Shown here piece after piece: positions 1,821 to 40,970 of a stretch of 42,423 nucleotides of DNA. The position numbers and the translations under genes are program-made. The notes under the pieces were generated by a model that worked only from the letters and a program-made list of their open reading frames with translations, made no database searches and had not been told where the DNA came from. The stretch spans positions 1 to 42,423 of the forward strand of contig JAILZY010000027.1 in NCBI GenBank assembly GCA_023512255.1. The letters are read 5' to 3'. The DNA is from a bacterium. Lineage in GTDB: Bacteria; SZUA-182; DTGQ01. Position 1 is the first letter of the stretch. The number at the start of each line of letters is the position of its first letter.

Positions 1821-3034
1821 TACATTTTCTCCTCAATAGTGGTCAGCATATGACCAAGTTTGATTTTTTTGGTCTTCAGATACTGAACATTATTCTGACA
1901 GGGCTTGATTTCAATCGGTATCCGGCTCACCACCTTGAGGCCGTATCCTTCAAGCCCTACAATTTTGCGCGGATTGTTGGTCAGAAGCTGGATATTTTTC
2001 AGCCCAAGATCTCTAAGCACCTGAGCCCCTATTCCATATTCACGCAGATCCGGCTTAAATCCGAGAGCCTCATTGGCCTCGACCGTGTCCTTGCCTCCAT
2101 CCTGAAGCTCATAGGCCCGCAGTTTGTTCAAAAGACCAATTCCCCGCCCCTCCTGGTGTAGGTAGAGGATAACCCCCTTTCCCCGCTGAGCTACCATCTC
2201 CATAGCTTTTTTAAGCTGAGCCCCACAATCACACCGCAGCGACCCTAGCGCATCACCAGTCAGACATTCCGAGTGAACCCGCACAAGCACCTCCTCTTCA
2301 GCAGACCAGCTACCCATAACCAAAGCAATGTGAATCTGCTTGTCGATCGTGCTCTGATAGGCAATACCTTGAAATATCCCATAAAGGGTGGGCAGAGAAA
2401 AAGAGGCGGCCCGGGTGATGAGCTTTTCTGTTTGGAGTCTAAAGGTGATTAGATCTTTGATAGTAACCAATTTGATACCATGCTTTTTCGAAAACTCAAT
2501 CAAGGAAGGAAGCCTAGCCATGGTACCGTCAGGATTCATGATTTCACAGATAACGCCTGCCGGATACAGACCAGCCAGACGGGCAAGATCAACGGCTGCT
2601 TCGGTTTGTCCAGCCCGCGCCAGAACCCCACCCTCTCTGGCTCGCAAAGGAAACATATGACCGGGCCGAGCCAAATCTTCAGGTCGGGTTTTGGGATCAA
2701 TAGCTGCCAAAACAGTTGCTGCCCGGTCTGCGGCGCTAATACCTGTAGTAGTCCGGTATTTGGCCTCAATCGAAACCGTAAAGGCTGTCTCGAAAGATGA
2801 GGTATTCTCCTGAACCATCATGGGAATTTTCAACTCATCCAGCCTCTCTCCAGTCATAGGCAGGCAGATCAGCCCACGGCCATACTGGGCCATGAAATTG
2901 ATCGCCTCCGGAGTAACCTTTTCAGCGGCGATGGTCAGATCTCCCTCATTTTCCCGATCCTCATCGTCGATCACAATGAGCATCTTCCCTTGACGAAGAT
3001 CTTCCAAGGCTTCTGGAATCGTACTAAAGCACAT
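1820..3034 (-). CDS. ribBA: Bifunctional DHBP synthase / GTP cyclohydrolase II
   Basis: A 404-residue fusion that supplies both precursors of riboflavin. The N-terminal half (about 1-200) is 3,4-dihydroxy-2-butanone 4-phosphate synthase, with [11 protein letters not shown] at 23-33 and the [12 protein letters not shown] block. The C-terminal half (about 205-404) is GTP cyclohydrolase II: the zinc ligands Cys257, Cys268 and Cys270 sit in the [15 protein letters not shown] segment, followed by HQEGRG at 293-298. All key residues are present in both halves. The ATG at 3034 has AAGGAAAA upstream. A 121-nt, almost purely A/T gap separates it from ribE and could hold an internal promoter. Confidence 0.96.
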
Positions 3035-3155
3035 AGGTATTTTCCTTCAAATACAGTTTAAAGTTATAATTTATGCTAGTTTATATTTCTATGTAAATTT
3101 ATACTATAATTAGTATAATATTATAATATTATTATATTAATATTTATGGCATATT

Positions 3156-3827
3156 TTATGACAAAAACCCATGTTTGGCTAAAAATTCCCTATCCAAAGA
3201 GGGAGAATGTATCTTGGCGCTAGCAGATTGAACTGAGGGATGTGCAGCCAAAAGCCGGTGAATATATTTAGCCAAAAGATCAGCTTCAACATTAACCTGA
3301 TCACCAATTTTTTTCTCTTTTAACGTAGTTACCTCGGCGGTATGGGGAATGATAGATACCCACACCAGGCCATCTTCCAGGGAAGCAATGGTTAGACTGA
3401 TCCCATCAATAGCGATTGACCCCTTATCCACCAGATAGCTAGAGATGCTTTCAGGGGGCTCTATTCCTAAAAGGTAGAGCTGACCGCTCCTTACAAGCTT
3501 TCTGATAATCCCGACCCCATCAACATGACCAGTGAGAAGATGCCCCCCCAAACGATCAGCCAGCCGCAGCGCCCTCTCCATATTGACCCGGTCTGAGACC
3601 CTCACATCGGCCAAGGTGGTTGTTTCGGCTGTCTGGGCTGAGATATCAAACTCCAGGATATTATCGGTCAAGGAAACTACGGTTAGGCAAACCCCATTAA
3701 TGCAAATACTGTCGCCGATCCGATCCTGGCTGTCTGTCCGAGATGGCCGAATCTTAATTTTGGTAATCTCTCGCCGGTGCTGAAGGCTAACTACGCTTCC
3801 TACTTCCTCGACAATTCCGGTAAACAT
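3156..3827 (-). CDS. ribE: Riboflavin synthase alpha subunit
   Basis: This enzyme dismutates two lumazine molecules to riboflavin plus the pyrimidine precursor. Two lumazine-binding repeats are visible: one begins MFTGIVEEVG and contains SICINGVCLTV; the second begins GHLLTGHVDGVG at about residue 95 and contains SIAIDGISLTI. I chose the ATG at 3827, the family-consensus start with AGGGAG upstream, over the in-frame TTG at 3839. The resulting 223 residues fit the family. The gene lies 23 nt after ribD. The C-terminal tail after LLAAHPSVQ is long and variable. Confidence 0.95.
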   Translation of the reverse strand: MFTGIVEEVGSVVSLQHRREITKIKIRPSRTDSQDRIGDSICINGVCLTVVSLTDNILEFDISAQTAETTTLADVRVSDRVNMERALRLADRLGGHLLTGHVDGVGIIRKLVRSGQLYLLGIEPPESISSYLVDKGSIAIDGISLTIASLEDGLVWVSIIPHTAEVTTLKEKKIGDQVNVEADLLAKYIHRLLAAHPSVQSASAKIHSPSLDREFLAKHGFLS

Positions 3828-10294: not shown

Positions 10295-11047
10295 CTATAA
10301 AGCCGCAGCCGTAGCAGCCGGACTAGCTATGGATGAGCCAGTGACCGCGGGAGCAGTTGTTGTCCCTCCGAGCAAACTGTTCAGGCCAGACAGAACAGCC
10401 AGCCCACCCATCATTGAATACGGATTCATCATCCCAAGCCCCATTCCGCCATACCCCAGTCCGCCATACCCTAGTCCGCTTAAAGACCCGCTCAAGCCAC
10501 CAAGACCGCCAAGGCCACCATACAGGCCGCCTAAGCCAGCCAATCCACCCATCATTCCATATGGGCCCATAAGACCGTATCCTAATCCCCCTAAGCCGCC
10601 ATAGAGGCCCAAGCCGCCACCTATCCCGCCGGCAAGGCCGCCTAAGCCAGCCAGGCCGCTGAGCCCACCAAGCATATATGGGCTCATCAGACCGGCTCCA
10701 AGACCGCCCAAACCACCATACATTCCTCCGCCATACAGTCCATATCCATACATACTGCCCAAACCGCCACCGAGACCCAAACCACCGCCGAGCCCACCAA
10801 GACCAGCATACATGCTACCCAGGCCACCTAGTCCGGCATACAGTCCTCCCCCATACATGCCGCCTAAGCCTAAACCACCATATAGGCCTGAATAGCCGCC
10901 TAGGCCAGAATAGCCGCCGTACGAGTAGGCCGGATATCCACTCATTGAACTGATCTGAGCATAAGTGAGACTGGAAGAAAGCAAAAAGAGGCCAAAAGCG
11001 AAAATTGCAAACAAAACCAAAGACTTAACTATATTATTGCTAGACAT
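10295..11047 (-). CDS. Exported Gly/Leu/Tyr-rich low-complexity protein, charge-free
   Basis: Function unknown. From the ATG at 11047 (AAGG upstream) the protein has 250 residues: a signal peptide (about 1-30, ending LTYA before Gln31), then about 220 residues without a single Asp, Glu, Lys, Arg or His. The mature part is built from GGLGG, GGLYGG and GMYGG units with three spaced PY boxes (MSPYML, MGPYGMM, MNPYSMM), ending in a Thr/Ala/Ser-rich tail. This composition recalls silk-like or surface structural proteins rather than enzymes. It is monocistronic, with a strong terminator and a long structured leader. The plus-strand Pro-rich frames across it are mirror images of the repeats. A small part of the repeat count could vary by slippage. 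Confidence 0.82.
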   Translation of the reverse strand: MSSNNIVKSLVLFAIFAFGLFLLSSSLTYAQISSMSGYPAYSYGGYSGLGGYSGLYGGLGLGGMYGGGLYAGLGGLGSMYAGLGGLGGGLGLGGGLGSMYGYGLYGGGMYGGLGGLGAGLMSPYMLGGLSGLAGLGGLAGGIGGGLGLYGGLGGLGYGLMGPYGMMGGLAGLGGLYGGLGGLGGLSGSLSGLGYGGLGYGGMGLGMMNPYSMMGGLAVLSGLNSLLGGTTTAPAVTGSSIASPAATAAAL

Positions 11048-11106
11048 ATTCTTTAACCTTACCTCATTATAACGTATTTTTTCATAACCAAACTGTTTAA
11101 ATGTTG

Positions 11107-11310
11107 TTACCCTCATACCTTTTGTAAAATCAACCGACAGAGGGTAATGACTAAAAAATGTCGATACTGAAAAGAGCCTATTTCCTGGCTTTCACTGCAA
11201 AAGCAGTTTACCTGCTTTACAAGTGTTTAGCCTTTATCATTTGGCTTTACGAACACCACCTTCCTTATCCCTTCTCTCTATTTCACCAGGGATGATTTGC
11301 CCCTTGGAGA
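11107..11310 (-). promoter_or_regulatory. Structured leader RNA, possible c-di-GMP-I-like riboswitch
   Basis: On the minus strand, upstream of the Gly-rich gene, GGGCAAATC (11294-11302), CGTAAAGCC (11243-11251) and GGCTAAAC (11225-11232) occur in the order expected for a c-di-GMP-I (GEMM) aptamer. The loops, however, are longer and the canonical ACGCAAAGCC is changed. Further stems follow, including a TTACCCTC/GAGGGTAA hairpin at 11107-11147. A folded leader is likely; the riboswitch identity is weakly supported. Confidence 0.3.
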
Positions 11311-11601
11311 GGCTTGCTGCTATGAGCCGCTCTGGCTTTTTCCAGCTTTGGAAAATCCATGAATAATCCAACTGGAAGAGCAAAAAAGCACAGGCAGCCC
11401 TAAAATTTAAATTTTTACTGGGAAAAGCTCCTAAAAATTTAAGGATATTGATGGATGGATACTTTGAATGGCGTGAAGAGATGAAAGTCTAAACCGGCCC
11501 CCAAAGCGGCCCCCCAAATATTCCCTGAGTATCTATCTAACAGACGAGAGATAGGGTTTTTGACTTACGCAATATTTCATCACCCCCGGATAGCATTTCA
11601 C
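11311..11601. other. Spacer between ecfT and the Gly-rich gene's leader
   Basis: No convincing gene. There is a perfect 10-bp-arm hairpin at 11408-11441 (TAAATTTTTA and TAAAAATTTA). A plus-strand mini-frame of 13 codons near 11450 has an AAGGA-like site but no support as a gene. No clear terminator for ecfT is visible. Confidence 0.6.
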
Positions 11602-39367: not shown

Positions 39368-39653
39368 TAATCATCAATTACGTTTTTGAAAAATTAGAGG
39401 CCATCCGAAAACTTCCCCCAAAGTAAGCAGCCTCGTTCGCCAGGCCTAGATAGACTCTTGGAACTGTAGGCTCTTATTTTAGGATAGCCTCTTGCCAAAA
39501 ACATTAACCATCTTAACATAGTTACCTGATGGGGTTATACAGTCTGTGAAATAATATTAATCAACATGATCAAGCCCCGATAATTAATAATCAAGATAAT
39601 TAAATAATTAGATAAGATGAGGCAACACAATCGAGATGAGAAAGGTGAGTAAA
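39368..39653. other. Spacer before the exported-protein genes
   Basis: No gene is seen. The last 35 nt (AGGCAACACAATCGAGATGA, then GAAAGG) resemble a segment at about 40249-40275 between the two exported-protein genes (AGGCAACACATGAATTAGAAA, then GG), which suggests duplicated leader sequence. Confidence 0.5.
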
Positions 39654-40214
39654 ATGAAATTCTTCCCCAAACAGCTCCTTCAGTTGATTTCCACCATTAT
39701 CCTCATGGCTGGCGCTCTGGCTGGTATTTCGACTGGCTTGCTGCCAAAGCAAGCACAAGCGCAAATTTACCCTCTGATAGGCAATTGGGCGGGCGCATCA
39801 AACTTTCTGGCACCATTCCAAAACTATGGCTATGGATGGCTGCTGGGTGGATCTCCATTCATCAACCCGTATGCAGGATGGGGGGGAATAGCCTCTTTGG
39901 CAGCAGCTCCAGTTTTTCTTACTGCCCTGTCGTCTGGCTGGTCAGGCGGCTATTACGGCAGCAACCCAATGGTGCCTTTCTCTTATGGGAGTGGACTTCA
40001 AACTCTCATGGAGGTATTAAACACCTATGCCTATCTCCAATATGCCATCCAATTCTACGAGATAGCCAGAAATGTCCCGCTCCTCTATCTCAGGGATATC
40101 CAAGCCGATCATATTGGGGCGATGATGTATAGTTACGCTGACAGTCTGGGGGTGTCGCCGCAAGAGGCTGTAGTCTATTTTATTAGGGAAAATTATTTCC
40201 CTCAGCTTCAATAA
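39654..40214 (+). CDS. Exported protein with a charge-free N-terminal half
   Basis: Function unknown. The ATG at 39654, with AGGTGAG upstream, is preferred to the one at 39636. The 186-residue protein has a signal peptide (1-36, ending AQA before Gln37). Residues 37-119 contain no charged residue and are rich in Gly, Tyr, Trp, Pro and Ala. Residues 120-186 form a normally charged, probably helical domain (MEVLNTYAYLQYAIQFYEIARN ... ). The INPYAGWGGIASL segment resembles MNPYSMMGGLAVL of the Gly-rich protein at 10295-11047. The two may belong to one surface-protein family. Confidence 0.78.
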   Translation: MKFFPKQLLQLISTIILMAGALAGISTGLLPKQAQAQIYPLIGNWAGASNFLAPFQNYGYGWLLGGSPFINPYAGWGGIASLAAAPVFLTALSSGWSGGYYGSNPMVPFSYGSGLQTLMEVLNTYAYLQYAIQFYEIARNVPLLYLRDIQADHIGAMMYSYADSLGVSPQEAVVYFIRENYFPQLQ

Positions 40215-40418
40215 ATAAAATCAAGCTCTTAACACAGGATGGGTATAGGCAACACATGAATTAGAAAGGAGGGAAACAGAGCTTATATTATATACCACAT
40301 AAAATTGGCAGGATAAATTTATTCTTCATATTAACCTCTTATCTGGTGGTTATTTGCTTTTATTTTATTATCCCTATTGTTTCTATAATAACGATAAAAG
40401 GTTCAAGGAGAAATGATC

Positions 40419-40970
40419 ATGCGTAAGACAAGGCTTTTCTTTGGATTGCTTTTATGTCTGGCTGTAAGTTTTATCATCACCTCATCAGCAATCGCTCAGT
40501 ACTGGCAAGCTATGCCCCCGTACAATGTCTTGTGGCCTCTGTGGACTCAAGCGCTATCCCCAATAGACCCCCTCACCGGCCAGCCTACGCCCCTGGTGAG
40601 CTCGCTTACCAGCTCAACGGTTCTTCCAGTACAGCCTGCTTTTGTTTGGGATATCGAGGACGTTCATCCCTGGTTTCTCTACAATGCTCCGGCGATCCTG
40701 GGTGGTAACCTTTATTATTTCGATCCCCTGACTGGCTTCAACACCTTCCCACCTCCAGATCATATTTTGCCAGGCGGAATTATTGTTCCTCATGCGCTGC
40801 CCTTAGGCTATGAATTTTTGATTCCACCATTTACACATGTTGATCTGCTGACCCTAATCGCCAACAATGCCTATGTGGCTGCCTTTGGATCGTATCCTGG
40901 TGCTGTGCCCTATTTTAGTCTGCTGACTCCAGAGGTTCTGTGGGGAGTACCTCCATTCCCTGTTTTCTAA
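40419..40970 (+). CDS. Exported Pro/aromatic-rich protein without Lys or Arg
   Basis: Function unknown. The ATG at 40419 has AAGGAG 8 nt upstream and is preferred to the ATG at 40413. The 183-residue protein has a signal peptide (1-26, ending AIA before Gln27). The mature part, about 157 residues, contains no Lys or Arg, about nine acidic residues and many Pro, Trp, Tyr and Phe. A DPLTG motif occurs twice (SPIDPLTGQP and YYFDPLTGFN). It follows the previous exported gene by 204 nt and is closed by a terminator at 41152. No known domain is recognisable. Confidence 0.78.
   Translation: MRKTRLFFGLLLCLAVSFIITSSAIAQYWQAMPPYNVLWPLWTQALSPIDPLTGQPTPLVSSLTSSTVLPVQPAFVWDIEDVHPWFLYNAPAILGGNLYYFDPLTGFNTFPPPDHILPGGIIVPHALPLGYEFLIPPFTHVDLLTLIANNAYVAAFGSYPGAVPYFSLLTPEVLWGVPPFPVF

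Follow-up and report, generated by a model that had tools for sequence, protein, structure and literature searches.

Exported structural proteins that are silk-like or rich in glycine form large families, known for the most part from animals and plants. The structural glycine-rich proteins (GRPs) of plants and the glycine-tyrosine-rich structural proteins of animals are lineage-specific families built from a signal peptide and (GGX)n arms. Squid suckerins contain Gly/Tyr/Leu-rich modules that resemble a GGLY repeat. These proteins of the sucker ring teeth are block-type, combining beta-sheet-forming blocks with amorphous domains that contain few hydrophilic residues (PMC4595719). In spider silk, GGX regions take 3(1)/polyproline-II helices and have been proposed as prefibrillar segments (PMC5974136).

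P0001 is a bacterial protein of 250 residues, encoded on the minus strand of the 42,423-nt stretch of DNA that was analysed (hereafter the window), from a start codon at 11047 to a stop codon at 10295-10297. Its N-terminus is a typical Sec signal peptide (residues 1-30; 10958-11047, minus strand) that is conserved in relatives, with cleavage expected after Ala30, between TYA and Q, matching an AQ junction conserved in homologs. The mature part of 220 residues (10298-10957, minus strand) is a GGX repeat with a Thr/Ala/Pro-rich C-terminal tail. It contains no Asp, Glu, Lys, Arg or His, nor any Cys or Trp, and Lys8 is the sole charged residue of the precursor. With neither Lys nor Arg, the mature chain offers trypsin no cleavage site. 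Charged residues average 24% in 11 other proteins of the window, and the chance of finding none in 220 residues is approximately 3e-27, a naive figure that ignores the strong compositional bias. The composition is 40% Gly, 19% Leu and 10% Tyr, with a GRAVY value of +0.62. The repeat contains GGL, GLG and YGG triplets, shows an excess at period 3 in the spacing of Gly and bulky residues, and has no poly-Ala run. Three PY boxes lie within it on the minus strand: MSPYML (residues 121-126, 10670-10687), MGPYGMM (residues 160-166, 10550-10570) and MNPYSMM (residues 207-213, 10409-10429). An earlier note on this DNA had given the same interval, the charge-free mature form and the three boxes; all of these are confirmed. 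P0001 has no sequence match in Pfam, NCBIfam or the PDB.

A Shine-Dalgarno sequence (GAGGTAAGG, 11057-11065, minus strand) precedes the ATG at 11047, and relatives have GAGGTTAAAG ahead of theirs. An alternative in-frame ATG at 11116 would yield a 273-residue ORF; because of the Shine-Dalgarno sequence before the ATG at 11047, and because the homologs agree, we favour the shorter frame as the probable one. The leader or intergenic region of 554 nt (11048-11601, minus strand) extends to cbiQ and contains conserved stretches such as TCCCTGGYGAAAT and GGAAGGTGGTGTT. By eye this leader recalls a glycine or c-di-GMP riboswitch, a candidate that was rejected since Rfam returned nothing relevant (E up to 5). 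Behind the gene, an intrinsic terminator (10194-10157, minus strand) consists of a 17-pair stem followed by the T tract TCTTTTTTTG. Terminator and long leader had both been named in the earlier note, which concluded that the gene is a real, regulated unit. Its reality stands, as does that of an exported, repeat-built product, given the terminator, the conserved leader peptide and Shine-Dalgarno sequence, and the substitution pattern described below; regulation is supported only indirectly, with no promoter recognised for P0001. The neighbourhood comprises UPF0182, cbiQ and the dcw cluster; we recognised in it no machinery dedicated to secretion or polymerisation. Elsewhere in the window, two further exported low-charge proteins (192 residues, 39636-40214, and 185 residues, 40413-40970, both on the plus strand) are approximately 9% charged and Pro/Gly/aromatic-rich; the former has no Pfam match.

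A congeneric species (G001) encodes an ortholog of P0001 on contig C13, with 78% identity and 235 aligned codons. The two genes differ by 96 synonymous and 52 nonsynonymous codon changes (dS approximately 1.5, dN approximately 0.17, dN/dS approximately 0.12) and, to judge from this comparison, P0001 is a real gene under purifying selection. Gly and Leu codons are mixed in both copies, and the repeat is therefore kept at the protein level and does not reflect a recent DNA expansion. The mature part of the ortholog is likewise charge-free. Its flanking genes differ: the G001 locus shows no conserved synteny with the window, and the UPF0182/cbiQ/dcw neighbourhood is not kept there. Of the PY boxes, the first lacks its proline in the ortholog, the second retains PY and the third is identical, so that P-Y is kept in two of three. 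The 5' regions are similar in patches (81% over 52 nt). Approximately 6 kb from the ortholog, on the same contig, lies a gene for a 305-residue exported protein with approximately 2% charged residues, which ends in tandem PTAVAPVLPPP-type repeats (L010:2723-3640, plus strand).

P0001 belongs to a set of proteins that share a conserved N-terminal leader (type MSYKNIVKSLVFSLIIFFGLFxFxNLxxAQY). Besides P0001, this leader set includes one protein in the same genome (G000:C72), two in the sister species (the ortholog on C13 and G001:C30), four in G002 (C34, C80, C141 and C204), one in G003 (C571) and partial genes in G004. Leader peptide and Shine-Dalgarno sequence are common to several genera and to a second taxonomic family. 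In the seven members counted, the mature parts contain 0 to 5 charged residues; the strict absence of charge in P0001 thus marks the far end of a tendency in the family and is not a unique trait. The earlier note had described P0001 by itself, without the family, the barrel domain of most members or this tendency.

Relatives occur in five of the nine genomes that represent the phylum, and these five span two taxonomic families. A profile of the repeat subfamily and a profile of the barrel domain described below each matched these five genomes alone out of 386, and none of the 381 other genomes searched holds the exported GGX/GGLY family, which is lineage-restricted by sequence search. One further match (G048, E 2e-4) was rejected as a composition artefact by appearance, with no exported glycine-rich repeat ORF there. 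A scan of genome contigs with P0001 found no relative, and the same scan with the barrel alignment returned one named record, CSMAG_150, filed as "Pseudomonadota bacterium", with the same matches as G002. CSMAG names belong to a cold-seep genome catalogue (PMC10491686). Phage records contain nothing that matches P0001, and plasmid records and viral contigs nothing that matches the barrel; an origin from phage or plasmid was rejected on these negatives.

Most members of the family pair a GLYGG/GGLY arm with a C-terminal domain of approximately 115 residues (AEQxGTWxGTW...), and most have a recognisable signal peptide. Searches with this domain gave 19 proteins in the genome of P0001 (G000), 23 in G001, 8 in G002, 3 in G003 and 6 in G004; the window itself contains no barrel-like domain. 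Across the 54 barrel-bearing proteins analysed (including the 19 of G000), the arms are mostly 24% to 48% Gly and nearly charge-free, with Pro-rich instead of Gly-rich arms in a minority. The arms repeat GGLY with period 4 (two arms tested), as against the period-3 GGX of the P0001 subfamily. AlphaFold2 predicts eight strands for the domain with a pLDDT of 94, and the best fold matches in the PDB are monomeric streptavidin, avidins and designed barrels (TM approximately 0.6 to 0.7, E approximately 1e-3), the streptavidin monomer and rhizavidin both scoring in this TM range. Neither a Pfam scan of six members for avidin-family matches nor a PDB sequence search with the barrel found anything. 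Since W7 and W11 are the only tryptophans conserved in the 54 sequences, biotin binding seems unlikely, and we do not claim membership of the avidin family. For 18 of the 19 barrel genes in G000 there is a reciprocal best hit in G001 at 69% to 92% identity, compared with 42% to 82% for the closest paralogs within G000; the duplications therefore predate the species split, and the copies have been kept individually.

A second C-terminal module read by eye, SPFGLQN.YY...QVPFLQIAPLLGI..LY...FP, recurs in L034, L036, L073, L076, L093, L139 and L143, and a third, LQ..LL..TGLDGGL.GL...Y..LVSQIP, in L038 and L138; pairwise BLASTP between two carriers of one shared module gave no alignment, and the module is to be taken as a by-eye reading. 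In several members (L071, L089, L091, L104, L038 and L013) a Pro/Thr/Val-rich stretch leads into a terminal aromatic tail, for example GGLFPFFPFFF, GWPLFPFFPWW or SGLLPFVPFI, which may serve in sorting or anchoring. Two adjacent paralogs (L072:1766-2617 and 2803-3621, on G000:C118) have repeat arms of approximately 110 residues that are almost the same, and barrels that clearly differ, which may be due either to gene conversion of the arm or to an assembly artefact. At two loci a subtilase (Peptidase_S8) gene is found close to family genes (L071:38-1867 and L010:6686-8398); the products are possible processing proteases.

Part of the family carries sigma-54-type sites. Of the 54 barrel genes, 16 have the pattern GGYAN6YTGC in the 600 nt ahead of them, where 2.4 would be expected from the site density in other DNA of the same phylum. 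The 3.8-Mb genome contains five copies of the tighter TGGTATCN4TTGCT, of which four precede family genes; in G001 two of three copies do so. RpoN is encoded. For P0001 itself no sigma-54 site was found. In addition, genes for a PAS histidine kinase, an NtrC-type sigma-54 activator and a lone receiver domain stand in the same order upstream of three headless Gly-rich relatives in three genomes and two genera (G000:C72, G001:C30 and G002:C141; loci L085, L014 and L013), all with the P0001-type leader and no barrel. There is an apparent sigma-54 regulon that would cover part of the family.

We put the probability at about 55% that P0001 belongs to a multigene family of silk-like structural proteins that is confined to this lineage and exported through Sec, and that within it P0001 is the member consisting of repeat alone. 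From the parallel with silks and glycine-rich proteins we infer for the family self-association, location and a mechanical role. Once the signal peptide is removed, the uncharged GGX chain would be free of electrostatic self-repulsion. It is expected to be disordered or to adopt polyglycine-II/polyproline-II stretches, and like chains could then associate through backbone hydrogen bonds and Leu/Tyr/Met contacts into an insoluble envelope or extracellular matrix, such as a coat, sheath or fibre. Headless proteins such as P0001 would supply bulk to this network, and the avidin-like barrel of paralogs with the same type of arm could cap it, anchor it or bind a ligand. That a chain is uncharged is not in itself proof that it aggregates. 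The AlphaFold2 model of the repeat, built from a six-row alignment, shows no confident fold (pLDDT 46) and supports no particular fibre architecture. The earlier note had suggested a sheath, fibre or adhesive coat; a structural role of this kind has become more likely because more than 20 exported GGX/GGLY proteins were found per genome, and the role itself we still infer.

The same chain, Gly-rich, uncharged, mildly hydrophobic and with a repeat that AlphaFold2 leaves without a fold, might instead be a soluble or phase-separating exported polymer acting at interfaces (wetting, lubrication, binding of a hydrophobic substrate or mineral), with no defined fibre or coat; that one relative comes from a cold-seep catalogue would be in keeping with this. 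We consider it unlikely, as the large paralog family with its shared barrel domains suggests assembly and, in general, hydrophobic Gly/Leu/Tyr chains without charge are seldom soluble. The barrels allow a different division of labour, in which the avidin-like domain would be the working part of ligand-binding surface proteins or adhesins, the repeat arms flexible stalks and P0001 a derived headless member. Arms that vary in length and sequence would suit such stalks, and so would the conservation of the barrel on most relatives and its individual retention between species. However, the headless leader set is conserved across genera with a leader of its own and, in three genomes, a regulatory cassette of its own, and P0001 is under purifying selection, and we are doubtful of the stalk arrangement as well.

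Far less probable is a membrane-active or microcin-like Gly-rich peptide that targets other cells. Some Gly-rich microcins have the same composition, and P0001 is Gly-rich, uncharged and exported. Its leader, however, is of the Sec type and not the double-glycine leader of class II microcins, no immunity or ABC exporter gene was recognised among the neighbours (UPF0182 and cbiQ/dcw), and the many paralogs are individually retained. As for a spurious or decaying frame thrown up by GC-rich low-complexity DNA, the sequence is indeed of low complexity and two antisense 91-residue frames overlap P0001, but the dN/dS of 0.12, the conserved signal peptide, the Shine-Dalgarno sequence and the terminator largely refute this origin, which is effectively excluded.

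Set against known systems, P0001 shares with the functional amyloids (curli, Fap, chaplins) that it is exported, repetitive and presumed to self-assemble; unlike them it has no Pfam or NCBIfam match and no N/Q-rich repeats, and no amyloid-system genes were recognised beside it. Avidin and streptavidin resemble the C-terminal domain of the paralogs, a predicted eight-stranded barrel with a GxW start, whereas this barrel has only the two conserved tryptophans (7 and 11) and no Pfam family, and P0001 lacks it altogether. The likeness to plant structural GRPs, in the signal peptide and a (GGX)n body of approximately 40% Gly, is one of kind only: no domain is shared with these or with the animal glycine-tyrosine-rich proteins, the present family is bacterial, and many paralogs carry the predicted avidin-like barrel. 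Suckerins are comparable in kind, as block-type structural proteins, and their His/Ala/Val-rich beta-sheet modules are absent from P0001. The spidroins offer GGX triplet repeats with Tyr/Leu, an export signal and few charges, as in P0001, which differs in having neither polyalanine blocks nor spidroin terminal domains (no Pfam hit), in being much shorter and in being bacterial; no sequence homology to spidroins was detected. On these comparisons, P0001 is similar to structural proteins of the silk type and falls into no catalogued family.

For us the main interest is the family to which P0001 has led, and less this one uncharged protein. Tentatively, and at somewhat less than even odds, this phylum may build an extracellular silk-like material from at least 20 exported GGX/GGLY proteins per genome, some charge-free, many with an avidin-like head and part of them under sigma-54/two-component control. 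If so, a bacterial family that has some members without charge, others fused to an avidin-like barrel, and an apparent sigma-54 regulon, would amount to a new biopolymer system. It would shed light on the cell surface in a phylum about which little is known and provide short natural sequences for studying how a charge-free protein stays exportable and assembles. Such a material would be an uncatalogued, independently evolved bacterial counterpart of silk or cuticle.
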